Shown here: positions 75-30,979 of the stretch, one piece after another
Layout of the letters: every line of letters begins with the position of its first letter
How positions within the stretch are numbered: position 1 is the stretch's first letter
Notes under the pieces: generated by a model
The model's database searches: none
Told to the model about the DNA's origin: nothing
Seen by the model: only the letters and a program-made list of their open reading frames with translations
NCBI GenBank assembly: GCA_013204105.1
Contig: JABMOM010000010.1
Location: 1 to 46,700, forward strand
Source: Flavobacteriales bacterium
Lineage (GTDB): Bacteria; Bacteroidota; Bacteroidia; Flavobacteriales_G; Salibacteraceae
Reading direction: 5' to 3'
Length of the DNA stretch: 46,700 nt
Made by a program: the position numbers and the translations under genes

Positions 75-689
75 CTACTTACTTATTCCACCATGCGTGC
101 CGAACCAAAGATTGCCTGCATCATCCTCAAGAATGCTCAAAACGATATCAGCTCCAAGACCTTGTGAAGTAGTATAAGTGGTGAAACTTTGACCGTCGTA
201 CTTGCTGACCCCTCCGCCATCCGTGCCGAACCAAAAATTGCCATCTTTATCTTCGGCAATGCTGAAAACGTAGTTATTTCCAAGGCCTTGATTGGTCGTA
301 TACGTAGTGAAATGCTGACCGTCATACTTACTTACCCCTCCGCCAATGGTGCCGAACCAGAGATTGCCCTGGTGGTCGCAAATGGAGCTTTTGTCCCCAT
401 AAGTAATTCCGTCCAAAGCAAGACCATCATCGGAATCAAAATTGGTAAATAAGCCCACGCCAGCGCTATGCTGGTCGGTCAGCATCTCACCCGTTAGTAA
501 GCGAGACACGATGGGTGATTTTGTAACCACAGGTGATTTGGCCGCTACCTCTCTAGGAGCAGGGCGAGTGCTACACAGGACTACCGTTGGTTGCAGAATG
601 CCGTGCGTCACCGTATCGGCCGCATGCTGCTGGGCAGTGGCTGCAGCGCCAATAATGAAAAATAAAAAAGCGATTACCTTATTTTTCAT
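75..689 (-). CDS. Two-component-regulator-type propeller repeat protein, probably truncated
   Basis: A 204-residue product from ATG at 689. An upstream in-frame ATG at 716 lies inside the cyclase gene; I prefer 689 because it gives a proper signal peptide (MKNKVIAFLFFIIGAAATAQ) and an ATGA overlap with the cyclase stop, which suggests translational coupling. The C-terminal half holds Reg_prop-type beta-propeller repeats with a 42-residue period (NLWFGT-x-GGGVSKYDGQ-x-FTTYTT). Such repeats normally form large periplasmic sensor propellers ahead of a signalling output. Here the frame stops after the third NLWFGT motif, far short of a full propeller, and homologous sequence continues beyond the stop. 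I infer a recently broken gene, or a sequence error. Its partner was probably the adjacent adenylate cyclase. Confidence 0.7.
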   Translation of the reverse strand: MKNKVIAFLFFIIGAAATAQQHAADTVTHGILQPTVVLCSTRPAPREVAAKSPVVTKSPIVSRLLTGEMLTDQHSAGVGLFTNFDSDDGLALDGITYGDKSSICDHQGNLWFGTIGGGVSKYDGQHFTTYTTNQGLGNNYVFSIAEDKDGNFWFGTDGGGVSKYDGQSFTTYTTSQGLGADIVLSILEDDAGNLWFGTHGGISK

Positions 690-2530
690 CTTGAGTGGGT
701 GTAGTGTGCAAACCACATCTCCATCTTGCCCTTGCCTTTCGCTTCAATCTTTCCTCTGCTTTCAAAAGAGAAGTCAGCATCATCTTTGAGCAACTCATAA
801 GTAGCATGACTCACATTCACCTTACCCACTTCCCCAGCACTTTCCATGCGACTGGCGGTGTTCACCGTATCGCCCCAGATGTCGTATTGGAATTTCTTCA
901 CCCCAACAATGCCAGCTACAACCGGACCGGTATGAATACCAACCCGCATCTCAAAGAACGGAAGCCCCCTAGCCCCTAGCTCCTCGCTCCTAGCTCCTAT
1001 GAAGGCCTGCATCTCAATGGCCGCCAGCACGGTGTTCTTTACCGAATCGTCTGTTGGCACCGGAAGCCCTCCCGCCGCCATGTAGGCATCACCGATGGTC
1101 TTGATCTTCTCGATGCCGTACTTGGCCATGATGCCGTCGAAGGCTTCGAAGCAGGTGTTGATTTCCCTGACCAAATCCTGCGCGCTCAATTTAGCGGAGG
1201 CTTCCGTAAATCCCTTGAAATCAGAAAAGAGGATGCTGACCATGTCAAAATCACGGGCTTCCGCTTTTCCGAATAATTTCAGTTCTTCCGCTATGTCGGC
1301 TGGTAGAATATTGAGCAATAAATTATTGGAGCGTTCCTTTTCCTTCTCAACGATGGCGTTTGACTTTCTAACATATCTCCATCGGCTATAGAAGCCACCG
1401 GAAAGTAACAGAAAGAACAAACCAGAAGCGATGGCTATGTTTCTGGTTTGCTTACCCTTTTGCACTTCTTCTTTGTGTGCTTCTTCCACCAAACGAGCTT
1501 CCTCAGCTTTGGCAGTGCTGTCGGCAAACACTCGCTTGGCGAACTCCATTTGCTGGAGTTTTTTTGTGGTTTCTTCGGTGTTTAGGCTGTCGTCGATCAC
1601 TTGAATTCGCTCTATATACACCAAGGCTTCATTACCCTTACCCATGGCTTTGTAAGTATCATAAAGGCATTGGCATGCTTCCTTTTCCCCTTGCAAGGCT
1701 TTGATCTCTCCGGCAAGATCAAGTCCCCTTTTGCAGAAGTCAATGGCGCTGGGATAATTGCGCTGAACCTTGTGGAGGAATCCAATACTGATCAGGCTAC
1801 CGGCGATGCCTTGTTTTTCACCGATTTCCTCCCTCATGTTTAGCGCCCTTAGGTTGTATTCCATGGCTTTGGAGTAATCGCCTTGCAGGTTGTATATCTC
1901 TCCAATATTAGCCAAGCAGGTTGCAACGCCTCTTTTAATCCCGAACTCTTCCATGGTCTTCAGCGTCTTTTCGAGGTACTCCAATGCAAGGGAATACTTG
2001 CCCTGATCAATATAAATGCCCGCAATGTTACCCAAGCAGCTTGCGACCTCTATTCTTTCATCTATCTCTTCATTGAGCTTTAGCGCCTTTTCATAGTATT
2101 CCAACGCGCGCATGTCGTTGCCTAGCTCTGCATAGATGAGTCCAATGTTATTCAAGCTGATTGCCATGCCTTTTTTATAACCGATCTCTTCCTGAATCTT
2201 GAGGGCTTTTTCATTGTAATCCAAGGCAAGCGGATAGTTGCCTTTTATGTGGTTGGAAGCGCCCTGAATGATAAAGCCCGACGCAGCTGCCTTTGGGTAG
2301 TTGTGCGCCTTAGCATAGCTGTGTAAATCCTCCGCCAATCGCATGGCGCTATCTGGTTTGGAGTACAGAAAACCATTCCAAGTATATTTTTGAAAAGCGC
2401 TGACACGCACAGAGTCGCTTTGGGTCTCATCTTGCCAAACGGTGTAGACGGAGTCTAAGTTGGCTTGGGTTTGGGCTTGAATTGCCAAGGCAAACAGTAG
2501 CGCTGACATGAAAAACAATACTCGCTTCAT
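686..2530 (-). CDS. TPR-repeat membrane class III adenylate cyclase
   Basis: A 614-residue protein expected to make cAMP from ATP. It has a signal peptide (residues 1-20), five or more TPR repeats (about 70-310, with the A-L-x-Y-x-x-K-A-L signature), a short coiled region, one membrane helix (about 363-383) and a class III cyclase domain (about 400-610). Metal-binding aspartates are D437 (LFSDFKGFT) and D481 (TIGDAYMA). Adenine-specifying residues are K477 and D550 (YDIWGD), which argue for adenylate rather than guanylate cyclase. N557 and R561 are the catalytic pair. The layout puts the TPRs in the periplasm and the cyclase in the cytoplasm. An oddity is the loop GARSEELGARG (about residues 512-522), encoded by five tandem heptamers of a family otherwise found between genes. 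The stop overlaps the start of the propeller gene. Confidence 0.93.
   Translation of the reverse strand: MKRVLFFMSALLFALAIQAQTQANLDSVYTVWQDETQSDSVRVSAFQKYTWNGFLYSKPDSAMRLAEDLHSYAKAHNYPKAAASGFIIQGASNHIKGNYPLALDYNEKALKIQEEIGYKKGMAISLNNIGLIYAELGNDMRALEYYEKALKLNEEIDERIEVASCLGNIAGIYIDQGKYSLALEYLEKTLKTMEEFGIKRGVATCLANIGEIYNLQGDYSKAMEYNLRALNMREEIGEKQGIAGSLISIGFLHKVQRNYPSAIDFCKRGLDLAGEIKALQGEKEACQCLYDTYKAMGKGNEALVYIERIQVIDDSLNTEETTKKLQQMEFAKRVFADSTAKAEEARLVEEAHKEEVQKGKQTRNIAIASGLFFLLLSGGFYSRWRYVRKSNAIVEKEKERSNNLLLNILPADIAEELKLFGKAEARDFDMVSILFSDFKGFTEASAKLSAQDLVREINTCFEAFDGIMAKYGIEKIKTIGDAYMAAGGLPVPTDDSVKNTVLAAIEMQAFIGARSEELGARGLPFFEMRVGIHTGPVVAGIVGVKKFQYDIWGDTVNTASRMESAGEVGKVNVSHATYELLKDDADFSFESRGKIEAKGKGKMEMWFAHYTHSR
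965..999 (-). repeat. Five tandem heptamers inside the cyclase gene
   Basis: On the minus strand the array reads TAGGAGC, TAGGAGC, GAGGAGC, TAGGGGC, TAGGGGG, with no interruption. It belongs to the same heptamer family as the arrays around the stop codons at 2982, 4992, 8401 and 11521. Here it is read in a frame that avoids the TAG triplets and encodes part of GARSEELGARG, a variable loop before the conserved FFEMRVGIHTGPV stretch. Confidence 0.85.
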
Positions 2531-4994: not shown

Positions 4995-7142
4995 TTCAGG
5001 AACCGGAAATCCACGATCCCGCATCAACGCATCGATCTTAGCATCACGTCCCCGAAACAAACGGTACGCCTCGGCTGGATCGATCGCGTTACGTGGGGCG
5101 AAGAGGTACTTGACGGCCTTGTCTGCCAATGCCTTGTCGTAGAAGCCGTCTGGAGCTTCTGCGAAGGCTTCGGAGGCGTCTGAGGTTAGGACGTCTGCCC
5201 ACATGTAGCCGTAGTAGGCCGTGGCGTAGCCTTCTCCTGAGAAGACGTGGCTGAAGTGTGGCGTTCTGTGGCGCATGGGTAGCTCCTTGGGCATGTTCAT
5301 CTCCATCAAGGTCTTGCGCTCGAAGGCGTCTACGTCGATGTCGGTGGGGTCTGCCAGGTGGAGCTTCATGTCCATGATGGCGGAGCCTAAGTATTCAGTA
5401 GTCGAGAAGCCTTGGTTGAAGGTGGAGGCCTTCTTGATCTTGGCGATCAGCTCTGCTGGCATCGGCTCGCCGGTTTCGCTGTGTACCAAGAAGTTTTCGA
5501 TCACGGCATCGGTAGATAACCAGCGCTCCAGCAATTGGGATTGGAATTCGGTGTAATCGCGCACGCCGCTGTTGAGCGTTGGGTATTTCACGTTGGAAGC
5601 AAAAAAGTGCAGCGCGTGGCCAAACTCGTGGAAGAAGGTGGTGGCGTCGTCCCAAGAGACGAGCAGTGCTTCGCCCGGTGCTGGCTCGATGAAATTTGAA
5701 TTGTTGGATGCCAGTACGTTCTTCTTGCCGTCAAACGTAGTGTAGCTGCGGTAGGTGTTGGCCCAAGCTCCGGAGCGCTTTCCAGGACGTGCATACGGAT
5801 CGAGGTACCACAAGCCGACGTTCTCGCCGGTGTTTTTGTTGGTCACTTCCCACACGCGTACATCTTCTTGATATACGGGAACGGTTCCTTCCGGCAGCGG
5901 CGTAAACTCAAAGTCAAACAGGCGACCTGCGACGTAGTGCATCGCTTCGGTCAATTTATCCATTTGCAAGTATTGCTTCACCTCATCCGAGTTGAGGTCG
6001 TACTTGTCTACCCTTACTTTCTCTGCGTAGAAACGGTAATCCCATGTCTCAATGGTAATACCTGCTCCCTCTTCATCTGCCAAGGCTTGCATGTCGGCTA
6101 CCTCTTCGGCAACGCGTGCGGTGGATGCCTTCCAAACGGCTTCCATCAGGTTCATGGCGTTTTCTGGCGTCTTGGCCATGCGGTTTTGGAGCCTCCATGC
6201 GGCGTAGTTACTATAGCCCATCAAAGCGACCCGCTCCTTTCTCAGGCGAAGGATCTCTGCGATGATGGCATTGTTGTCGTACTCGTCGCCATTGTCTCCT
6301 CTAGAGTAGAAGTTAGACCATACCTGCTGGCGCAATGCACGCTCAGTAGAGTACGTCAAGAAAGGATCCATGGAAGAACGCGTGTTGGTGATGGCGTACG
6401 TGCCTTCTTTACCATTGTCGACGGCCATCTTAGCGGCGGATTTGATGAAACCTTCTGACAGGCCTCCTAATTGATCTTCGGTGAGGAAGGTGATGTAGTT
6501 CTCCTCGTCGTGCAATACGTTGTTGGAAAAATCGGTGTAGAGGCTTGAAAGCTCTTTGTTGATCGCTGCGTAGCGCTCCATTTTTGCTGCGTCCAATTCG
6601 GCACCGCTCATTTCAAAACTTTTGTAGGTCAGGTCAAGCACGCGCTGTTGGTCAGCCGGCAAAGGCTTTTCTTGGGAAGCGCCGTACACTGCCTTGATGC
6701 GCTGGAAGAGGGCTGTGTTCTGTGTGATTTTCGATCGGTACTCCGACAATAATGGGGCTAGTTCGCTTTCCACTTCTCTGAACTCCGGGCTCGACATGTT
6801 GCCGCTGAAGATGCCGTAGTACGTATAGGCTAGGTCCAATGCAGATCCGGCGCGTTCCATTTCTTCGATGGTATTCTCAAAGGTGGCGGGCTCCTCGCTG
6901 TTGGCGATGCTGTCGATCTCATGGAGGTGCAATTCCATTCCTGTAACCATGGCATCCTTTACGTCGGCCACGTTCATTTTATCAAAGGCGGGAACACCAC
7001 CATAAGGTCCTGTCCATTCCTGGAGCAGTGGATTGTCATTCATGGGAGGAGTTTCAGTCATTTCTTGGGATTCTTGATTGCAAGAAGTCACCGTGATGGC
7101 CAGCATAAGAGATGCTGCAGCGCAGAGGAGGTTTCTTTTCAT
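4992..7142 (-). CDS. dcp: M3 family metallopeptidase lipoprotein (peptidyl-dipeptidase Dcp-like)
   Basis: A 716-residue zinc peptidase that should cut dipeptides from the C-terminus of peptides. The signal peptide carries a lipobox (TVTSC, Cys21), so the enzyme is anchored in the cell envelope, as is common for Bacteroidota members. Zinc ligands are H505 and H509 with catalytic E506 in FFHEFGHALH, and E532 in the following helix (DYTEFQSQ). The length and the N-terminal NPLLQEWTGPYGGVPAFDK segment fit the Dcp branch better than oligopeptidase A, although distinguishing the two by eye is uncertain. The TAG stop lies in a short heptamer array. Confidence 0.93.
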   Translation of the reverse strand: MKRNLLCAAASLMLAITVTSCNQESQEMTETPPMNDNPLLQEWTGPYGGVPAFDKMNVADVKDAMVTGMELHLHEIDSIANSEEPATFENTIEEMERAGSALDLAYTYYGIFSGNMSSPEFREVESELAPLLSEYRSKITQNTALFQRIKAVYGASQEKPLPADQQRVLDLTYKSFEMSGAELDAAKMERYAAINKELSSLYTDFSNNVLHDEENYITFLTEDQLGGLSEGFIKSAAKMAVDNGKEGTYAITNTRSSMDPFLTYSTERALRQQVWSNFYSRGDNGDEYDNNAIIAEILRLRKERVALMGYSNYAAWRLQNRMAKTPENAMNLMEAVWKASTARVAEEVADMQALADEEGAGITIETWDYRFYAEKVRVDKYDLNSDEVKQYLQMDKLTEAMHYVAGRLFDFEFTPLPEGTVPVYQEDVRVWEVTNKNTGENVGLWYLDPYARPGKRSGAWANTYRSYTTFDGKKNVLASNNSNFIEPAPGEALLVSWDDATTFFHEFGHALHFFASNVKYPTLNSGVRDYTEFQSQLLERWLSTDAVIENFLVHSETGEPMPAELIAKIKKASTFNQGFSTTEYLGSAIMDMKLHLADPTDIDVDAFERKTLMEMNMPKELPMRHRTPHFSHVFSGEGYATAYYGYMWADVLTSDASEAFAEAPDGFYDKALADKAVKYLFAPRNAIDPAEAYRLFRGRDAKIDALMRDRGFPVPE

Positions 7143-8403: not shown

Positions 8404-11202
8404 CCAAAGCTCAATCTCATCCACAAATACAAACCCCTCCCCACCATGCCCTTGATGCCACTCGGGGAGTGTTCCGAAATTGTAGGCTTTGACTTTGAGG
8501 AAGGAGGCTTCGGTTGGAGCGGAGAGCGTTGCGGTGAAATCCTTCACTTGTACCTCGTAGTCCTCGGCTCGGACGGTGTTGTCTATCGTTGCCACTAGCT
8601 TGAAATCTACGCCATTGTTGGAGGTATAGAACTCCACCCTGGTCGGCATGAGGATCCAGCTGCGGGTGTCTTGGAGGAAGCCGGCGGAAAGGGTTTTAAA
8701 ACGGTGGGGGCCGTCTAAGGCGATCACGCACTCAAAATCTTGGTCTTGGTAGCCTTGCCAATATCCCTTGCGCCAATTCTCGTCGCCTCGGATGCCGTCT
8801 ATGAGTCCTTCTACTCCGCCTGCTGAATACTGGGGATTGTACTCACAGTTCAGTTGTACCTCCCAGTCGGGGTGCGGGTTCTTGTAGTACCGCGCCTTTA
8901 CCGGGCTGCTGGTCCATTGCTCATCTCCGACCACTTTGCTCGACTGAGCTACGATCGTGCGGCTTTCATGGATCCAAAAGGCGGTGTCGGCCATGCTTTC
9001 GGATAACGTACTGTCTTCGTCCATGAAAGCGTAGGATGCCACTTGCCCCTCAGTGGTAGTGATGGAGATGCGCATGCTGTCGTCAAACGACAACGACTGG
9101 GCAGAAATGACGGGAGCTTGGAGATACGTATTAGCGGTTGCGTCTGCCACGGTAAGCGGCTTCGCATTGTGCTCCTGCAACAAGGTAGCGTGATCGATGA
9201 ACAGGCCGTCTTTCAGTGCGGTAGTGACGCTTTCCCGGTTGAAAGTATTGCCATTTTCCAAGTGCACGGTATAGTCGTCGAGGTAGGGCTCTACCAAGGC
9301 GTACTCGGCACGACCCGGTGTTACCGCGTAGATGCCCATGGCCGACATCACGTACCAAGCGCTCATCTGTCCGCAGTCCTCATTCCCGATCAACCCGTCG
9401 GGCTGGGTGGAATAGAAGTCCTTTAAGATCTGGTGCACCCGTTGCTTGGTTTTTTCGGGTCGTTGGATGAAATTGTAGAGGTAGGCCATGTGGTGGCTGG
9501 GCTCATTGCCGTGGGCGTACTGACCGATAAGACCGGTGATGTCCGCTTGGGTGCGTCCCGTGGTTTGCTCAGAAACACTGAACAATTTGTCCAGCTTGGA
9601 TTCGAAGTCGTCCTCCCCTCCCATCGATGCGATCATACCGGGCACGTCCTGCGGCACGAAGAAGGAGTATTGCCATGCATTGCCTTCGGTAAAGTGGTTG
9701 TTCACCTCCCGCGGTTCGAAGGGGGTCAACCAACCGCCGTTGCTTCGCGGGCGCATCAACTTGGTGGCAGGGTCTAAGAGGTTTCTCCATGCATTCGATC
9801 GCCCTAGGTAGCGTGTCGCCACTTCTTCATTCCCCAGGTGATTCGCCACTTGGGCGATGCACCAATCGTCGTACGCGTACTCCAAGGTTTTCGAAACGCT
9901 TTCATGCTCATCGTCAATGGAGAGGAAGCCTTGTTTTCTGTAAGCCGGAAGTCCGAGGTGATTCCACGTTGCGCTCTTCTGCATGGCTTCCAAGGCCAAG
10001 GCTTGATCAAAGTCGTCGATCCCTTTGGCGAGTGCGTCTGCCATGACGGATACGGAGTGATAGCCAATCATGCAGTCCGTCTCGTTGCTGCACAGTTCCC
10101 ATACCGGAAGTCGACCACCTTGCTGGTACATGGCCAAGAAGGTTTGGATGAAGTCGCGCGTGCGGTCTTGTTCGATGATGGTGAAGAGCGGGTGCAAAGC
10201 ACGGAAGGTATCCCAAAGCGAAAAGACCGTGTAGTAGACAAAGCCCTCAGCTTGGTGGATGGCGTTGTCCATGCCCCGGTAGCGCCCATCTACGTCCATG
10301 GCCACGTTGGGGTGGATCATGGTGTGGTAAAGCGCCGTATAAAAGGTGCCTACCTTCTCAGGGTCATCGTCCTGCACTTCGATCTTTCCGAGCTGATCGT
10401 TCCAAGCCTGCTTGGCAGCGGATCGGGTGCCTTCAAAATCCCACTCGGGCAGTTCTGCTTTTAAATTCCGCTCCGCTCCGTCTTCGTCGGCAAAGGAGAT
10501 GCCCACTTTGGCCATCACCGAGACCACCGCGCCGAAGCGGAAAATGACTTTGGTTGAATCGTTGTTAAACACAGGATCAAAGGCTTGATCGAAGACGATG
10601 TAAGCATAGGTATGCTGATCCCGCGCCCATGCATTGCTCCTCCGTCCGACCGCCACGGTATGCTCATCGACGATGCGGATGTGACCCTCGGTCAGCGGAT
10701 CGCGGTGGCTCAAGTCGAGGACGATGCTGCTCGTGCTTTTCGGGAAGGTGTAGTGATGAAATCCGACGCGCGTGGTGGCGGTGAGTTCGGCTTTAATGCC
10801 ATTGTTCAAAGCGACTTCGTAATAACCTGGTTCCGCTTTTTCATCAGCGTGGGAAAACCCAGCTGCGTATTCAGTCTGTTCAAAGGAAGGCTCCCCCACC
10901 TGCGGCATGAGCAGGATGTCTCCGTAATCGCTCACGCCCGTTCCGCTCAAGTGCGTGTGAGAAAAACCGTAGAGGATGCTATCGCTGTAATGGTATCCAC
11001 TGCATCCCTGCCAGCTGCCGTCCACACGCGTATCCGGCGAAAGCTGAACCATTCCGAAGGGCAACGTAGCCCCCGGAAAAGTATGCCCGTTGAAGTCGGT
11101 CCCTACGAAAGGGTTGACGTGATCAGCGGGTGAGGAAGCGGGCGTGCAGGCTTGCACGAGGAGGCTTAATGCAAGGAGGAGAGGAAAGGATGTTCGTTTC
11201 AT
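8401..11202 (-). CDS. GH92 family alpha-mannosidase lipoprotein
   Basis: A 933-residue glycoside hydrolase of family 92, calcium-dependent inverting exo-alpha-mannosidases that trim mannose from N-glycans or mannans. The lipobox LVQAC (Cys19) predicts surface or envelope anchoring. The N-terminal GH92 sandwich starts at HVNPFVGTDFNGHTFPGA (28-45). The catalytic barrel contains WELCSNETDCMIGYHS (368-383), GNEPSHH (565-571, with the presumed catalytic acid E567) and GNEDCGQMSAW (606-616, with the presumed base Asp). After about residue 690 come a chitobiase-C-terminal-like segment and a discoidin-like module (about 795-933), likely carbohydrate binding. No SusC/SusD pair is visible nearby, so it is not in an obvious polysaccharide utilisation locus. 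Confidence 0.95.
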   Translation of the reverse strand: MKRTSFPLLLALSLLVQACTPASSPADHVNPFVGTDFNGHTFPGATLPFGMVQLSPDTRVDGSWQGCSGYHYSDSILYGFSHTHLSGTGVSDYGDILLMPQVGEPSFEQTEYAAGFSHADEKAEPGYYEVALNNGIKAELTATTRVGFHHYTFPKSTSSIVLDLSHRDPLTEGHIRIVDEHTVAVGRRSNAWARDQHTYAYIVFDQAFDPVFNNDSTKVIFRFGAVVSVMAKVGISFADEDGAERNLKAELPEWDFEGTRSAAKQAWNDQLGKIEVQDDDPEKVGTFYTALYHTMIHPNVAMDVDGRYRGMDNAIHQAEGFVYYTVFSLWDTFRALHPLFTIIEQDRTRDFIQTFLAMYQQGGRLPVWELCSNETDCMIGYHSVSVMADALAKGIDDFDQALALEAMQKSATWNHLGLPAYRKQGFLSIDDEHESVSKTLEYAYDDWCIAQVANHLGNEEVATRYLGRSNAWRNLLDPATKLMRPRSNGGWLTPFEPREVNNHFTEGNAWQYSFFVPQDVPGMIASMGGEDDFESKLDKLFSVSEQTTGRTQADITGLIGQYAHGNEPSHHMAYLYNFIQRPEKTKQRVHQILKDFYSTQPDGLIGNEDCGQMSAWYVMSAMGIYAVTPGRAEYALVEPYLDDYTVHLENGNTFNRESVTTALKDGLFIDHATLLQEHNAKPLTVADATANTYLQAPVISAQSLSFDDSMRISITTTEGQVASYAFMDEDSTLSESMADTAFWIHESRTIVAQSSKVVGDEQWTSSPVKARYYKNPHPDWEVQLNCEYNPQYSAGGVEGLIDGIRGDENWRKGYWQGYQDQDFECVIALDGPHRFKTLSAGFLQDTRSWILMPTRVEFYTSNNGVDFKLVATIDNTVRAEDYEVQVKDFTATLSAPTEASFLKVKAYNFGTLPEWHQGHGGEGFVFVDEIELW

Positions 11203-11277
11203 AGTGTCGGGTCGAAAAATAAGGATTCATTTTTCTCTACGTAGTCACGCCAAAGGAGGAAGCCACCCAAAAGCTGT

Positions 11278-11338
11278 CACTTCGAGTGATCGCACATGAA
11301 ACGAACTCGTTAAAACGGACCTTGCGCGATCGTATCGA
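11278..11338. repeat. Long imperfect inverted repeat
   Basis: The outer arms TCGAGTGATCGC (11282-11293) and GCGATCGTATCGA (11326-11338) pair almost completely, and the centre contains the palindrome AACGA-AC-TCGTT (11300-11311). It stands upstream of the GH92 gene (minus strand) and downstream of the hairpin repeat unit of the methyltransferase locus. Transcribed, it could fold into a long stem. Nothing codes here. Confidence 0.65.
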
Positions 11339-11361
11339 GAAGCTTGACCCCAGTGTTCGGG

Positions 11362-11425
11362 AGTGTTCTCGATACATCCCGCCTACGGCGTGACACTCGA
11401 ACTAACATCCTGGGAGGTATCTTCC
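11362..11425. repeat. Hairpin-containing intergenic repeat, copy 2
   Basis: GTGTTCTCGATACA, then the imperfect palindrome TCCCGCC-TAC-GGCGTGA (11377-11393), then CACTCGAACTAACATCC and GGTATCTTCC. Apart from the hairpin loop and one stem mismatch it matches the unit at 2809-2906. The gap 11203-11520 contains this, the long inverted repeat, two heptamer arrays and no gene. Confidence 0.8.
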
Positions 11426-20188: not shown

Positions 20189-23100
20189 ATGCTACGCAAA
20201 CTGTGCTTTCTAGTCCTATTGATCGTTGCGTCCACCGCTGTGGTACGTGCGCAATATTGGATGCAGCGCGGCGGTAGCTTGAATGTGGATGAAGGACTCG
20301 ACGTGGTGGTGGATGACGACGGTAATTCGTACGCCACTGGATATTTCAGTGGGACGGCTGACTTCGGCAACACCAATCTAAGCGCTACTGGATCCACCGA
20401 CATCTTCGTAGCGAAATTGGATGAAGACGGCGAATACGTTTGGGCCGTCAAAGCAGGCGGAAGCGCAACAGACCGCGGGCTTTCGATCGCGCTGGATGAT
20501 TCCAACAACGTGGTAATCACCGGATTTTTCAATGGCACGGCGAGCTTTGGGAGCACCTCCCTAACAGCTGCTGGCCAGCAAGATATATTCATTGCAAAGT
20601 ATTCTACCGGCGGCTCCTTGCAGTGGGCCACGCGCGCCGGTGGAACCGATTCAGACATCGGAAGTGGCATTGCGGTCGATAATGCCAACAACATTGTGGT
20701 CTCCGGAGAATTCAAAGGCTCTTCCACCTTTGGCACCACCACCTTGACCAGTCAGAACGCTTCAACCGACGTATTCATCACCAAGTTGACTCCAGGTGGA
20801 TCCTTCGCATGGACACAACAAGGTTCGGGTGATCAGGCGGACCGCGGAGTTGATGTAGGCTGCGACGGATCCGGCAACATTTACGCCGTTGGATCCTTCA
20901 GCGACACCTTCAGCTTTGACGTGGTACACAACAACCAAATGTTCAACGCGGTGTACGTGGCCAAGTTCAACAGTTCCGGTGTAGAGCAATGGTTCAAGAT
21001 CATCGGCGGGGGCGTCTCGGTGTTTGCTTACGCGATGGATGTGCGCAGCAATGGCGATGTATTCGTCGGCGGAGACTTTTCGGGCAATCTGATCTTCTAC
21101 AATTCCAGCAATACTACCCTCACCAACACCTACGATAACGGCATTTTCGTCGCAAAGTACAACAGCAGCGGATCCACCATTTGGGCCAAACGCAGCGGAT
21201 CAAACAGCGCCATCTCCTGTCGAGGGGTAGCCGCAGATGGCAGTGGAAACGTGTATGCGGTTGGGCATTTCGAATGCAGCTTTGATGAGTACTCGGACGA
21301 ATACGGCGAGGGCATTTTTAGAAACATAGGATTCGGTGACATCTTCCTGACCAAGTTCAACAGCAATGGAAACTTCGGCTGGAGTCGACACATCGGCGGC
21401 GCGAAGGCAGACTACGGACACGGAGTGGACGTTGGCCCCAACGGGAAACCCCACTTTACGGGTAGCTTTCAGAGCAATTTGGTGGTGCCCACGTCTGGCA
21501 ATTTTCTCAGCAGCAACCTCAGCAATTGGAACGAGTCCGACTGCACGGGAAACAATGGCTACTGCAATGATGCCAACTACGGCAGTTTTTACCGCGTGCC
21601 TTCCGACGGAAATTCAGACGTGGTCGTGGCCAACTGCTTCGACCCAAACCGTGAACCGCTCGACTATTTTATTCGGTCTGGATCCGGTTGCGTGAAGGAC
21701 GTGATCCATGCTTGCATCAACGAAGGGTGTCCGGATACCGTAGCGGCGTGTTCCAACGTCATTCTCAACGCTCAAACCAAGACTTGCCCTGGCATCGGCC
21801 CCGCTTACAATTATTCGTGGCAAGGCGGTCAGAATATTGCTCTAGCCTATTACAATAGTCCCGGATACAAATGGCTTCGCGTAAAAACGAAGGATCAATG
21901 CTACGTGGATACGGATACGGTTTGGGTGCATATTCTTCCATCACCTGTCCAACCTTATGTGGAAGATGATGTGGTTGTGAATACGCCCACACCGTTTCCC
22001 GTCAAAGTGGATGTTTGCATACCCGATACCATTCAGCTCACCGGAAGCAACATCGTCACCGACAGCTTTCGATGGGAAGGTCCCGGACTTCCGAGCAACG
22101 GAGTGGCCGACTCCATTATTGATGCAACCGAGACGGGCCTCTACACCTTTTTTGTTGTAGACGAAAATGGTTGCGAAAATTCAACGCAAATTCAACTCGA
22201 ATTTTTCGACCCCTTGGATTCATTTCTATTGAGGGCTTGGATTGAAGACACCATTTACATCTGCGATAACGAGGACGTCGTCATTCAACTGTACGACAGC
22301 ATTGGAAACCCCAACCACCAAACCATCTGCTTTACCGACTCCCAGCCTTATGTGGTCACCACGTGGAATTATTCTCCGAGTACTTGGGTCACGACAGAAG
22401 ACTGCATGACCTTTTTGAACGTGACGCCAGAGGATACAGGTTGGTTCTACTTTGAAGCAACCGTAGTTCGGTACATCCCGTGCGATTCAGATACGTTCAC
22501 GGTGATGGATTCGGTCTACATCGTCCCGATTCCCGCCCCTGAACCACCGCCCAATACGGTGACGATGGTGGGCAGTGCGTATTTCTGTCCTGGTAGTACC
22601 TGTCTACAATATGGAACCGGTGGCGGCGGCCCTGGCACCTTCTCTTGGACGGGTCCGTTTGTGAATGGAATGGACACCGATTCCGTGTGGATTGGTGTGC
22701 CCGGAACGTATACGGTCTACTCCACTGTGTATGACACCAATCAATACGGTTGCGTTGACAGTACCGTGGCGGGAGACGCAAAGTACATTTCAGAAAAACC
22801 CCAGCCGGTGATTACGGCCTCTTCGCTGCTGATTTGCCCCAACGACACCGTTTGGATTACGGTCAGCAACACAGGAGCGTTTCAGGGTTTTCATTGGGAG
22901 GGCCCTAGTGGTCCCATTCCGGGCGACAGCAGTGCGATCATCGCCACCGAAACGGGGACGTACTATTGCAATGTCAATGACTCGGATAGCTGCGACCTCA
23001 CCAGCAATTCGATCATTCTGAGTCAATACTCTACCCCGTCATTGGAGGCTGGAGGTGACGTAGTTATTTGCGATGGCGACAGCCTCACCTTAACGGTAGT

Positions 23101-24424
23101 TTCCAACGCGGGCAGTGAGATCGAGTGGTTGCCACCGCTCAGCGGAAATGGTTTGACACAAGTGGTAACGCAGCCCGGTGTGTACACGTGCAAAATCACC
23201 TCATGCGGCATCGAAACCTACGCGAGTATAGAAGTCTTTCCGTCTTACGTTGAATCAGAAATCACCTACAACGGCGTGTTGTGCTTAGATAGTATCATGG
23301 TGCTCTATGGCACAGACAGCATGTACACCTACGCTTGGAGCAGCAGCAACAGCGGAGCCGACAGCATCGTCATTTCGCAACCCGGAACCTATATCCTGAC
23401 TACTACTGACACCAACGGATGCCAGAAAGTTTCCGATCCCATTACGATTACCATTGATCAAGAGCCTACGGCCATTTCGATTGATGGCTATCCGGTGCTT
23501 TGCGAATTCGATACGATGACCTTGTACGGCAGTAGCAACATGGTGCGCTACCATTGGTCGACGGGCGACACCACCCAAAATATTTTGATCATTGATGACG
23601 GCATGTACACGCTGTGGGCGAAGGACTCAAACGGCTGTCGTGGCTTGTCTGAACCCATCGAGATCACCACTCCCGACACCATCGCCAAATACGATGTGGA
23701 AGGCGACCTCGCTTTTTGCGAAGGTGATTCCGTGATGTTTCGGGCGCGCAAAAAGGGCATGGCAGAATACGTCTGGTTACCAGATTCGACCTTCGGCAGG
23801 ACTATATTCTTCGACACTACGGGCATCTATTGGTTGCACACGACCGACACCTTCGGCTGTGATGCATGGAGCGACACCGTGGAGGTATACATGCAACCCA
23901 ACGAGATCGAAAAACCGATTACCAAAGACACCCTCATCTGCGAAACGCGCCATGCTGCCTTGTATGTCCAGCACAACATCGGCACGTTGAAATGGTCAGA
24001 GAGGCCTTATGGTCGTATTTTCCACGAAGGTCCGTTCTACCTCACGGATGCATTGATGGAGCCCGTGACCTATTACGTTTGGTCAGACTTTGAATTGTGC
24101 CACGGCGATACGGCGCATGTGCATGTCGACACCAAGGACTGTTTCAACGCGCTGGTTCCCAACGTCTTCACACCCAACGGAGATGGAGACAACGACCGGT
24201 TCATCATTTTACTCGAAGAGATTACTTGTTTCCACATCTATATCTACAACCGATGGGGTGTATTGCTGCACGAAGGTCACTCGGTGGACGAAGGTTGGGA
24301 TGGGAACATTCAAAACAGCGGGAAACCTGCTCCAGAAGGGACCTATTATTACCTTGTTGAATATTGTCGGCACGATGCCTCGCGAGCAACAGCCAAGGGC
24401 TTTGTTACCTTGCTCCGTGAATAA
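20189..24424 (+). CDS. Large secreted T9SS protein with SBBP propeller and gliding-motility-type C-terminus
   Basis: A 1411-residue exported protein with a signal peptide (1-21, ending VVRAQ). Residues about 27-435 hold seven SBBP-type repeats (pattern D-R-G-x-x-I-A-x-D-x-x-x-N-x-x-x-x-G-x-F-x-G), enough for a seven-bladed beta-propeller. Residues about 440-1315 are a series of Ig/PKD-like beta modules, with cysteine and tryptophan pairs typical of adhesins. Residues 1320-1411 are a CHU_C/type B T9SS sorting domain, with PNVFTPNGDGDND, YNRWGVLL and GWDGN motifs. The product should be secreted through the outer membrane and kept at the surface. The role is probably adhesion or matrix; the ligand is unknown. 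Confidence 0.95.
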   Translation: MLRKLCFLVLLIVASTAVVRAQYWMQRGGSLNVDEGLDVVVDDDGNSYATGYFSGTADFGNTNLSATGSTDIFVAKLDEDGEYVWAVKAGGSATDRGLSIALDDSNNVVITGFFNGTASFGSTSLTAAGQQDIFIAKYSTGGSLQWATRAGGTDSDIGSGIAVDNANNIVVSGEFKGSSTFGTTTLTSQNASTDVFITKLTPGGSFAWTQQGSGDQADRGVDVGCDGSGNIYAVGSFSDTFSFDVVHNNQMFNAVYVAKFNSSGVEQWFKIIGGGVSVFAYAMDVRSNGDVFVGGDFSGNLIFYNSSNTTLTNTYDNGIFVAKYNSSGSTIWAKRSGSNSAISCRGVAADGSGNVYAVGHFECSFDEYSDEYGEGIFRNIGFGDIFLTKFNSNGNFGWSRHIGGAKADYGHGVDVGPNGKPHFTGSFQSNLVVPTSGNFLSSNLSNWNESDCTGNNGYCNDANYGSFYRVPSDGNSDVVVANCFDPNREPLDYFIRSGSGCVKDVIHACINEGCPDTVAACSNVILNAQTKTCPGIGPAYNYSWQGGQNIALAYYNSPGYKWLRVKTKDQCYVDTDTVWVHILPSPVQPYVEDDVVVNTPTPFPVKVDVCIPDTIQLTGSNIVTDSFRWEGPGLPSNGVADSIIDATETGLYTFFVVDENGCENSTQIQLEFFDPLDSFLLRAWIEDTIYICDNEDVVIQLYDSIGNPNHQTICFTDSQPYVVTTWNYSPSTWVTTEDCMTFLNVTPEDTGWFYFEATVVRYIPCDSDTFTVMDSVYIVPIPAPEPPPNTVTMVGSAYFCPGSTCLQYGTGGGGPGTFSWTGPFVNGMDTDSVWIGVPGTYTVYSTVYDTNQYGCVDSTVAGDAKYISEKPQPVITASSLLICPNDTVWITVSNTGAFQGFHWEGPSGPIPGDSSAIIATETGTYYCNVNDSDSCDLTSNSIILSQYSTPSLEAGGDVVICDGDSLTLTVVSNAGSEIEWLPPLSGNGLTQVVTQPGVYTCKITSCGIETYASIEVFPSYVESEITYNGVLCLDSIMVLYGTDSMYTYAWSSSNSGADSIVISQPGTYILTTTDTNGCQKVSDPITITIDQEPTAISIDGYPVLCEFDTMTLYGSSNMVRYHWSTGDTTQNILIIDDGMYTLWAKDSNGCRGLSEPIEITTPDTIAKYDVEGDLAFCEGDSVMFRARKKGMAEYVWLPDSTFGRTIFFDTTGIYWLHTTDTFGCDAWSDTVEVYMQPNEIEKPITKDTLICETRHAALYVQHNIGTLKWSERPYGRIFHEGPFYLTDALMEPVTYYVWSDFELCHGDTAHVHVDTKDCFNALVPNVFTPNGDGDNDRFIILLEEITCFHIYIYNRWGVLLHEGHSVDEGWDGNIQNSGKPAPEGTYYYLVEYCRHDASRATAKGFVTLLRE

Positions 24425-28386: not shown

Positions 28387-30456
28387 ATGAAGACTGCCAA
28401 CATCATCGGGATCGTTTCGCTGTGCATGCTCATTATCGGTGAAATTCTCAAGTCTTTCCGATTGCCCGGCGCTGGCATATTGATCATTCTGTCCATGTTT
28501 TTAATGGTGGCCTTTTACGCGCCTCTTCATCTCGTTGCAGCCTTAAAAACGGATCGACTAAAGTGGTTTTCCATCGTTGAATTCGTTTCAATCATACTCC
28601 TCTCATTGTCAGCGGCATTTAAGATTCAACATTGGCCTGGCGGCGGTGTCTTGATCTACTCGTTTTTCGCAATATTCCTGTTGGTATACATTCCCTCTTA
28701 TCTCGTTTATCAGATCAAGAAAAAATCGCATCGAGACAGGCTCGTGTTCAATATCGTCATCGGTGGCATGGTGATTATTTTTTTTAGAATTTACATGGTG
28801 GGAAACGTCAGTAAACGGATACTGGATAGCTACGATTTGGCCATCGTGAAACAATCCGAACTCATTGAAAAAAACTCTACTCGTTCTATAAAACATCTGG
28901 AATCTATTCGGATGCTGGGCGAAGGTGAGCGCTCACAGCAAGCAGTAGAACTTCACAGGCAATCTGATCTTTTACTAAGCTCCATTGATTCGTTACGCAA
29001 TATTTTAATATCCGAGACGGATGGAATTCCTATGGAACAAGCGGACTCCATGTGGATAGGTGAAATCAGAGGTCGAGACAACCACAATATTCCCACCCAA
29101 ATCATGATGGATTTTGGTAAAGGAAACGTGCTACGCAACCGATTAAACAAACACTCAGATTTTGTCAAATCGCTTTTTGAAAAACAGACTTTAATGACCC
29201 TTGAAGACGATTTAACCATTGATACGAGAGATCGATTTGATGCGTGGGAAAAGAAGAGTATTGCTTGGGATACATATATGTTCAACAATGTCCCCTTATC
29301 TGTAATTATTGGCTCACTGTACACCATTCAGCATGAGGTTATACAAGTGGAGAACGCAGCTTTAGAACATATTTTGAATGAAATGGCTTCGGAACAAGGT
29401 GAAAACCTCGCCGCGGTTTTGGCTGAGGTAAATGCAAAGTATGAAGCTCAAGCTCAGGCAAAAGAAATTGCCTTGCTTGAAAAGGAAAAACAACTCAGTG
29501 ATCAAGGACGTCAGGAGAGTGCTGCTGAATTGGAAACGGTAAGGTCCACCATGATCTACCTCATATTGGGTCTCTTGGCATTCTTCATTATGATTTTCTA
29601 TATCGTTCGCAGCAATATTGCCAGAAAGCGACTTAACAAAGAAATAAGCGCTCAAAAAGAAGAAATCGAACAACAGCACGACCAGCTCGAAGAAAAGAAT
29701 CGTGAAATCACGGATTCCATTACTTATGCAAAACGCATCCAGAGCGCCATCCTGCCGCCGGCACGATTAATAAAGGAACACCTCGCATCAAGCTTTGTAC
29801 TGTACAAACCCAAGGATATTGTGGCCGGTGACTTCTATTGGATGGAGTCGATTGAAGAGACGGTGTATTTTGCCGCAGCGGACTGCACAGGACATGGAGT
29901 TCCCGGGGCGATGGTTTCTGTAATTTGTGTCAACGGTCTTAATCGCTCGGTGCGAGAGTTTGGATTGCGCGAGCCTGGTCAGATTTTGGACAAGACCAGA
30001 GAGTTGGTGATTAAAGAATTCGAGAAGAGCGAAGAAGAGGTGCAAGATGGAATGGATATTTCACTTTGCGCACTTAACACCAAGACCAATGCACTTAGAT
30101 GGACAGGAGCGCACAACCCCTTGTGGATTGTACGCAAAGGGGCTGCAGAAATTGAAGAAATCAAAGCAGATAAGCAGCCCATCGGAAAGTACAATCTTGA
30201 AAAACCTTTTACTACCCATTCCGTCCAGCTGGAAAAAGGAGATACGCTTTACATATTCAGCGATGGCTACCATGATCAGTTCGGCGGAGATCGCGGGAAG
30301 AAATATAAAAGCAGTAAGTTCAAATCATTCTTGGTCGAACTCGCTAAAAAACCGATCGGCCAACAACATGAAATACTGGACAAGGAGTTTGAATCTTGGC
30401 GAGGATCACTCGAACAAATCGATGACGTTTGCGTAATAGGTGTTGAGTTCAGCTGA
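28387..30456 (+). CDS. SpoIIE-type protein phosphatase with GldL-like and GldM-like N-terminal modules
   Basis: A 689-residue membrane protein. The C-terminus (about 450-689) is a PP2C/SpoIIE serine phosphatase with metal-binding aspartates D482 (GDFYW), D499 (AADCTGHG), D626 (FSDG) and D679-D680. Two GldL-like helix pairs lie at residues 1-110, each with the PG turn (FRLPGAG at 24-30 and FKIQHWPGGG at 78-87). A fifth helix (121-138) runs into GNVSKRILDSYD, the form in which GldM continues from its membrane helix. Residues 140-335 resemble the first periplasmic domain of GldM, including GKGNVLRNRL and FNNVPLSVIIGSLYTIQHEV. A sixth helix (389-407) and a coiled coil (405-445) lead to the phosphatase. 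I infer a sensor built from gliding-motor parts controlling a cytoplasmic phosphoprotein. Confidence 0.88.
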   Translation: MKTANIIGIVSLCMLIIGEILKSFRLPGAGILIILSMFLMVAFYAPLHLVAALKTDRLKWFSIVEFVSIILLSLSAAFKIQHWPGGGVLIYSFFAIFLLVYIPSYLVYQIKKKSHRDRLVFNIVIGGMVIIFFRIYMVGNVSKRILDSYDLAIVKQSELIEKNSTRSIKHLESIRMLGEGERSQQAVELHRQSDLLLSSIDSLRNILISETDGIPMEQADSMWIGEIRGRDNHNIPTQIMMDFGKGNVLRNRLNKHSDFVKSLFEKQTLMTLEDDLTIDTRDRFDAWEKKSIAWDTYMFNNVPLSVIIGSLYTIQHEVIQVENAALEHILNEMASEQGENLAAVLAEVNAKYEAQAQAKEIALLEKEKQLSDQGRQESAAELETVRSTMIYLILGLLAFFIMIFYIVRSNIARKRLNKEISAQKEEIEQQHDQLEEKNREITDSITYAKRIQSAILPPARLIKEHLASSFVLYKPKDIVAGDFYWMESIEETVYFAAADCTGHGVPGAMVSVICVNGLNRSVREFGLREPGQILDKTRELVIKEFEKSEEEVQDGMDISLCALNTKTNALRWTGAHNPLWIVRKGAAEIEEIKADKQPIGKYNLEKPFTTHSVQLEKGDTLYIFSDGYHDQFGGDRGKKYKSSKFKSFLVELAKKPIGQQHEILDKEFESWRGSLEQIDDVCVIGVEFS

Positions 30457-30541: not shown

Positions 30542-30979
30542 ATGAAGAAGATTCTACTAGCACTTAGCGTCGCCCTCGTAATGGCATTGGGCGTGCATGC
30601 TCAAGCCGAGATCGAGTTTGAGAAAAACGTACACGACTTCGGAACCATGAAGCAGCACGGAGATGCTTCTACCGAGTTCAAATTCACCAATACGGGTTCT
30701 GAACCATTGATCATTTCGAATGCGAAAGGATCTTGCGGATGTACTGTGCCAGAATGGCCACGCGAACCAATCCAGCCAGGAGAATCGAACGTGATCCGTG
30801 TCAAGTATGACAGTAAGCGCATCGGCCCGATCAACAAGTCGGTAACCATTACATCAAATGGCAGCGAGCAGCCAAAGGTTATCCGCATCAAGGGTAAGAT
30901 AGACGCAGCTCCAAAAGCAGATGAATCTGCGATGCCAGTAAAGGAGCCAGCAGCAGGCGCTCCAAAGGCCAACAACTAG
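30542..30979 (+). CDS. Secreted DUF1573 protein
   Basis: A 145-residue exported protein with a signal peptide (1-20, ending GVHAQ) and one DUF1573 domain, an Ig-like ASH/MSP-type fold (about 22-118). Typical motifs are HDFGTMKQHGDASTEFKFTN, the cysteine pair SCGCTVPEWP and GPINKSVTITSNG. The function is unknown; such proteins are abundant in Bacteroidota periplasm. The C-terminal 25 residues are an Ala/Pro/Lys-rich tail without structure. It has its own promoter and a strong terminator, so it is a single-gene unit. Confidence 0.93.
   Translation: MKKILLALSVALVMALGVHAQAEIEFEKNVHDFGTMKQHGDASTEFKFTNTGSEPLIISNAKGSCGCTVPEWPREPIQPGESNVIRVKYDSKRIGPINKSVTITSNGSEQPKVIRIKGKIDAAPKADESAMPVKEPAAGAPKANN

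Follow-up and report, generated by a model that had tools for sequence, protein, structure and literature searches.

The gene at positions 28387-30456 (+) of the window, the whole stretch of 46,700 nucleotides analysed here, encodes what is probably a receptor-type PP2C phosphatase whose membrane and periplasmic half derives from GldLM (PorLM), joined into a single chain. The open frame begins with ATG and predicts a protein of 689 aa, referred to below as the window fusion, which is close to certain to be composed of two GldL segments, one GldM segment and a SpoIIE domain.

Domain organization of the window fusion

The order of the parts is two GldL-type hairpins, a GldM-type helix with the first GldM domain, a returning membrane helix, a coiled coil and SpoIIE/PP2C, located as follows.

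28390..28545, + strand: GldL-type hairpin 1 with the periplasmic turn FRLPGAG (residues 2-53; model helices 2-23 and 29-53, column-by-column alignment with relatives).
28561..28719, + strand: GldL-type hairpin 2 with the turn FKIQHWPGGG (residues 59-111; model helices 59-80 and 86-111).
28735..28803, + strand: GldM-type membrane helix leading into NVSK (residues 117-139; hydrophobic segment 117-142, NCBIfam and PDB GldM matches).
28804..29391, + strand: first periplasmic domain, D1, of GldM/PorM type (residues 140-335; Pfam GldM_1st, VIA structure match).
29536..29610, + strand: returning membrane helix TM6 (residues 384-408; hydropathy 382-413, within the long predicted helix 304-414).
29611..29820, + strand: putative cytoplasmic coiled-coil linker (residues 409-478; inferred from sequence, mostly beyond the folded construct).
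29824..30453, + strand: SpoIIE/PP2C phosphatase domain (residues 480-689; Pfam SpoIIE, SiaA PP2C 6k4e, motifs AGDFY, ADCTGHG, DGMD, SDG and DDVC).

Hydropathy gives six hydrophobic segments at approximately residues 1-27, 20-55, 58-81, 82-111, 117-142 and 382-413, and the recognizable motifs are FRLPGAG (residues 24-30), FKIQHWPGGG (78-87), NVSK (140-143), GKG (244-246) and FNNVP (299-303). A DUF1573 gene (positions 30542-30979, Pfam 1.1e-36) lies 85 bases behind the fusion, and a DUF1573-like gene, identified by sequence, is also found behind the fusion of the nearest relative (L057). Elsewhere in the window are a further signalling protein, a TPR protein with an adenylate/guanylate cyclase domain (686-2530 (-), Pfam 1.6e-57), and a 1,411-aa protein of beta-propeller repeats that carries a CHU_C type IX secretion signal (20189-24424).

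An earlier note, made from the DNA of the window, had read the periplasmic part as the first domain of GldM/PorM, entered by a GldM-type membrane helix running into NVSK. Pfam, hhalign and the predicted fold all agree on the domain, and the helix corresponds to hydrophobic segment 117-142, with GldM matches starting at residues 127 and 140. Residues 181-331 match Pfam GldM_1st (E = 3.4e-17, 63.5 bits against a cut-off of 25), and residues 140-337 match NCBIfam GldM (TIGR03517; E = 7.5e-13, 48.1 bits) over positions 27-231 of the 524 in that profile. The window fusion thus falls below the 180-bit equivalog cut-off that TIGR03517 sets for full-length GldM, which includes domains 2-4. A phmmer search of the PDB aligned residues 127-328 with GldM/PorM 7sat (E = 1.7e-7). 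When the window fusion and its nearest relative were aligned with GldM using hhalign, residues 118-336 matched over 199 columns (probability 99.5%, E = 2.2e-22), and a profile built from 38 module sequences detected GldM 7sau_A in the PDB at 2.2e-28.

The AlphaFold2 model (single chain, residues 1-415, 38 aligned rows; mean pLDDT 84.8, pTM 0.67) consists of two hairpins (four helices), a fifth helix, a GldM-like domain and then one helix, 304-414, that includes the returning segment, with confidence lower (65-74) from about residue 380. In a Foldseek search with this model, the first 17 rows were all GldM/PorM. VIA gave Z 21.5 to 7cmg_A (rmsd 1.7 over 180 residues) and Z 21.3 to 7sau_A, and the best non-GldM chain in that comparison reached Z 10.0. 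The predicted single-chain fold is therefore that of the GldM/PorM first domain, and not that of a CHASE domain or a plain four-helix sensor. An ordinary helical sensor or CHASE domain was ruled out by the VIA fold match and the hhalign profile match.

GldL-type helix pairs had also been proposed for the N-terminal half, and these are clear via the relatives and weak in the window fusion alone. Here, Pfam GldL_N scores below its cut-off (E = 0.022 to 0.58), with no match to hairpin 1, and hhalign of the window fusion and its nearest relative against 17 GldL sequences reports a probability of 95.0, yet over only 18 columns, in hairpin 2. The NCBIfam GldL equivalog TIGR03513 (68.3 bits) does not list the window fusion at E≤10, and six relatives score 22-32 bits. 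A hairpin HMM built for this work gives E = 4e-16 for hairpin 1 and E = 1e-18 for hairpin 2, matches that arise by construction as the window protein is in the HMM seed. The profile of 38 module sequences finds GldL 7sau_C on hairpin 2 (1.1e-5) and 7sax_C on hairpin 1 (0.005). Among 12 module proteins scanned with Pfam, 11 passed GldL_N and 11 passed GldM_1st, and two or three GldL_N stretches were found in 8 of the 12; the misses were L210 for GldL_N (22.2 bits) and L034 for GldM_1st (19.5 bits). The four SpoIIE fusions within this set each have one GldL_N stretch or none. GldL chains were absent from the Foldseek and VIA lists for residues 1-110, which says nothing either way because the GldL hairpins are short. 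As a chance control, the four HMMs built here returned no hits at E≤0.01 on 5,524 ORFs of shuffled letters.

A predicted return through the membrane to a PP2C phosphatase with all of its metal aspartates, as the earlier note had it, is borne out. Residues 491-688 match Pfam SpoIIE (E = 5.2e-21, 75.9 bits against a cut-off of 25), and the set of PP2C aspartates is complete (D482, D499, D554/D557, D626 and D679/D680), including those that we take to bind metal. The SiaA phosphatase 6k4e is the sole solved match to the PP2C domain at E≤0.001 (E = 6.3e-28). NCBIfam SiaA (NF038263) matches residues 414-688 only (E = 1.6e-56, 192.2 bits), below its equivalog cut-off of 700 bits. A membrane sensor, a coiled coil and a SpoIIE domain are common to SiaA, other membrane SpoIIE phosphatases and the window fusion, whereas the sensor half of the window fusion is GldLM-derived. 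Six consecutive SpoIIE genes, 58-65% identical to the phosphatase half, occur elsewhere in the window's genome (G000:C17, approximately 42-55 kb; L002 and L004-L008).

Two SiaC genes (1e-29 and 3e-30; L207:5384-5800 and 6028-6441 (-)) are located upstream of one related GldLM-SpoIIE fusion and on its strand, the gaps being 187 and 227 bases. SiaC was seen beside one of the eight SpoIIE fusions, that locus being the only one covered by the family search, and the window's genome carries two SiaC genes, C25:7321-7671 and C17:216705-217013, on contigs other than that of the fusion. A SiaC-kind substrate for the predicted phosphatase is plausible.

Distribution and forms of the module

The window fusion is not a single oddity but one output of a wide family. 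The possibility of a single-genome oddity was ruled out by related fusions in other genomes and families. The genome of the window encodes two further proteins that align with residues 2-333 or 2-330 of the fusion. One, of 421 aa, has an extra N-terminal domain and adjoins a PadR gene (PadR Pfam 7e-22), and the other, of 365 aa, is the module alone; both pass Pfam GldL_N, with two stretches, and GldM_1st. Intact gldL and gldM genes are found elsewhere in this genome, on contig C40, so the fusion is an addition to separate GldL and GldM. The natural unit of the family is two (or three) GldL segments with one GldM.

A survey of the order found some match, ordinary GldM included, in 30 of 42 genomes. 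When named genomes were scanned, the best 80 of 116 confirmed stretches yielded 79 loci, whose titles all name Bacteroidota. Sorted with the HMMs built here, 51 of these carry the module or two or more hairpins, 27 carry ordinary gldL/gldM or just gldM, and one is a contig-end fragment. Four forms were seen among the 51: an N-domain with two hairpins (and a GldM segment), two hairpins and a GldM segment alone, the SpoIIE type, and an N-domain with three hairpins, nearly always followed by two hairpins with a GldM segment. In a survey of the phylum with a first profile, the full module was present in at least 2 of 395 genomes, with one partial match, a low count that probably reflects the many genomes sampled from outside the class. 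When the class was surveyed (395 genomes), a near full-length module was counted by hand in at least 44 genomes. The survey counts are lower bounds, with at most five candidates scored per genome.

The nearest fusion relative is 58% identical to the window fusion over the module. At least six more SpoIIE fusions, 714-762 aa long, are arranged as hairpin, hairpin, GldM segment, SpoIIE, and come from families f71, f75 (two), f89 and f92 (two), the window's own family being f1. Thus the survey of Bacteroidota suggested by the note finds the fusion in seven proteins beyond the window's, in five families of Bacteroidia in all, with SiaC neighbours at one. In one of these (L211), the second hairpin falls under the threshold of the hairpin HMM. 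When four of the six further fusions were scanned with Pfam, SpoIIE and GldM_1st were over the cut-off in all four and GldL_N in three. In a tree of 90 modules, restricted to proteins whose GldM-domain match spans 140 residues or more, the SpoIIE label needs one change, and one or two fusion events are both possible because the support for a single clade is 51. GldL-type hairpins placed directly on SpoIIE, with no GldM segment, were seen at L110:2735-4132 (-) and L163:3898-5286 (-), each divergent from a PadR-module operon. A 529-aa variant (L053:1634-3223 (-)) has two recognized hairpins, a periplasmic part and, by eye, extra C-terminal membrane helices.

A PadR gene is directly upstream in 43 of the 46 loci, within the 79, that have an N-domain and hairpins. 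Of the three exceptions, L107 lies behind another PadR pair, L109 is at a contig end and L149 has its PadR 1.3 kb away. HAAS-PadR pairs have been proposed as an alternative to two-component systems (PMC11237479), and the module relatives likewise carry an N-terminal three-helix domain, modelled in one of them, directly behind a PadR gene. This N-domain is HAAS-like only: Pfam HAAS matches 0 of 16 and NCBIfam perm_prefix_1 matches 5 of 16 (best 4.8e-8), and a PDB profile search with it gave nothing meaningful. Unlike these pairs, the window fusion lacks such an N-domain and no PadR was seen beside it, and a GldLM-type membrane part is not named in the available part of the HAAS-PadR account (PMC11237479). 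No description of a GldLM-type module fused to SpoIIE or paired with PadR was found in the open-licence literature, searched partly by title, an absence that carries little weight.

The three-hairpin form occurs principally in tandem gene pairs. In all 25 of the pairs found, the first gene has three hairpins and the second has two, and the stop-to-stop frames are separated by -34 to +160 bases (L102-L110, L112, L116, L122, L123, L125, L126, L130, L131, L133, L136, L137, L139, L146, L159, L166 and L169). Each gene normally has one GldM segment, which is under the threshold of the HMM built here in one or both genes of some pairs (e.g. L125, L126, L137, L146 and L169); Pfam, run on one pair, detects three and two GldL_N stretches and GldM_1st in both chains. 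Two three-hairpin genes have no partner (L145:5749-7221 and L168:1904-3340) and are set apart in the tree. The association of a third hairpin with a partner gene (25/0 versus 2/20; Fisher test, p = 2e-11) ignores kinship, and independent events are few because two changes on the tree suffice to explain the three-hairpin genes. The model of a three-hairpin protein (pLDDT 86.1, pTM 0.54) has a three-helix N-domain, three hairpins, a seventh membrane helix and a GldM domain, with Z 23.6 to GldM 7sau_A and Z 21.3 to 7sax_B, the latter including the membrane helix.

Motor residues and proposed function

The FKxxHWPG hairpin, the NVSK membrane helix and the domain 1 fold are common to the GldLM/PorLM motor and the window fusion. 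In contrast to the motor, the module is one chain with two (or three) hairpins per GldM segment, lacks the GldL cytoplasmic domain and GldM domains 2-4, has gained a phosphatase or PadR-linked output, and has lost the motor Glu and Arg. The acidic residue of the second helix had been suspected to be missing, and M40 and F97 indeed occupy the two Glu positions of the window fusion. After clustering at 90% identity, and counting GldL only if beside GldM and reaching the column, the motor Glu is present in 39 of 39 GldL, and Glu or Asp in none of 196 module hairpins (86 proteins). Only one GldL-class hairpin, L173, lacks Glu (it has Pro), and this is a fragment at a contig end with no GldM beside it; two more GldL were left out as their alignments fall short of the column. 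At the Arg of PRQKM before the GldM membrane helix, which we take to be a motor-relevant residue, 56 of 56 GldM have Arg and none of 68 module proteins has Lys or Arg. Unclustered counts, which include some near-copies, are 49/50 GldL against 0/204 hairpins for Glu and 64/64 GldM against 0/71 for Arg. Loss of the Arg in the window fusion itself depends on the alignment because R118 is three positions from that column. The Lys and His of FKxxH are each retained in 193 of 198 module hairpins.

With the residues of the GldLM proton drive gone, the window fusion should not turn by itself, and it is likely to be a receptor rather than a motor. The main argument for a receptor is that two unrelated outputs, PadR and SpoIIE, are found on one membrane module. 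The receptor reading in the earlier note is supported by the use of the module as the membrane part of PadR-paired genes, by the SiaC genes upstream of one fusion and by the two SiaC genes in the window's genome. We propose the following topology, dimer, signal path and substrate. The two GldL hairpins, GldM helix and GldM domain 1 would derive from the T9SS/gliding motor, and two chains would most likely dimerize by way of their GldM-type domains. Either these domains or the helix bundle would be altered by a periplasmic partner, by load or by the state of the envelope. The long helix would relay this change from domain 1, past TM6 and the coiled coil, to the phosphatases, leading them to dephosphorylate a SiaC- or STAS-type regulator.

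Alternatively, the window fusion may co-assemble with the genuine GldLM/T9SS, e.g. by pairing with real GldM, and report motor state or secretion load, which we consider rather unlikely. The 43 module-bearing genomes examined for GldM (39 of the at least 44 with a near full-length module, and four with a partial match) include 41 in which it passes the cut-off. The two misses each have at least 114 T9SS sorting-tail matches and also lack GldL; with the tails so abundant and GldL absent as well, the gldLM loci are probably missing from these two assemblies. Binding of the T9SS regulator PorX to the cytoplasmic part of PorL has been described (PMC5005315) and is a precedent for signalling tied to the motor. 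However, co-occurrence is weak support because GldM is common in Bacteroidia, with many plain GldM matches; the window gene is outside the gldKLMN locus, which is on C40, and its product has no domains 2-4 to reach the GldKN ring. Two similar consecutive genes, GldN-like by eye, follow gldM in the window's genome (L062:9610-10464 and 10522-11421).

That the window fusion operates as a small proton motor, driving the phosphatase by rotation or torque, is very improbable. The module retains the FKxxH Lys and His, and two acidic residues, E19 and E65, remain in the first helices of the hairpins, E65 being common to the nearest relative. However, the family-wide loss at both motor positions argues against a working motor, as does the report that GldL E49 is strictly conserved and that T9SS function depends on it (PMC8986121). 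Arginines R118 and R133 also remain nearby, and a substitute proton path via E19, E65, R118 and R133 is unlikely. A convergent likeness to GldM, with the N-terminal half an ordinary helical sensor, might be considered as the part is helical and identity is low (about 20%), but this is contradicted by the GldM profile and fold matches and by the one order that GldL-type and GldM-type pieces share in 68 proteins (after clustering), leaving it scarcely credible. Finally, though the window's genome is a draft in 46 contigs, an assembly chimera or frame artefact can be dismissed, contradicted by the single open frame, by the nearest relative in another genome with matching architecture and flanking gene order, and by recurrence of the architecture in six further genomes.

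The receptor may, more tentatively, be one of a class of Bacteroidia membrane receptors that evolved from a rotary motor, each a covalently wired, proton-dead GldL5M2 working as a motor in reverse. The motor contains five GldL and two GldM (PMC9389320). The tandem pair would form one complex matching this 5:2 parts list, its operon encoding exactly those parts. The window fusion alone is 2+1 (two hairpins and one GldM segment), and a dimer would have 12 membrane helices, as in GldL5M2, with two TM6 replacing the fifth hairpin. PadR or dephosphorylation could then read out torque, load or the binding of a partner at the GldM-type axle. ZorAB of the Zorya defence system resembles the module in being a 5:2 motor-type complex that relays a signal into the cell, but it is a separate family in which the ion path is kept.

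If the receptor reading is correct, a retired motor serves as the sensor, and the structure of the live motor is already solved. This would offer a route to study conformational change across the membrane in 5:2 motors free of proton flow, and the 3+2 gene pairs, as a natural covalent version of the 5:2 complex, would be useful for fixing subunit positions. It would also point to sensing of the envelope or the T9SS in many uncultured Bacteroidota.
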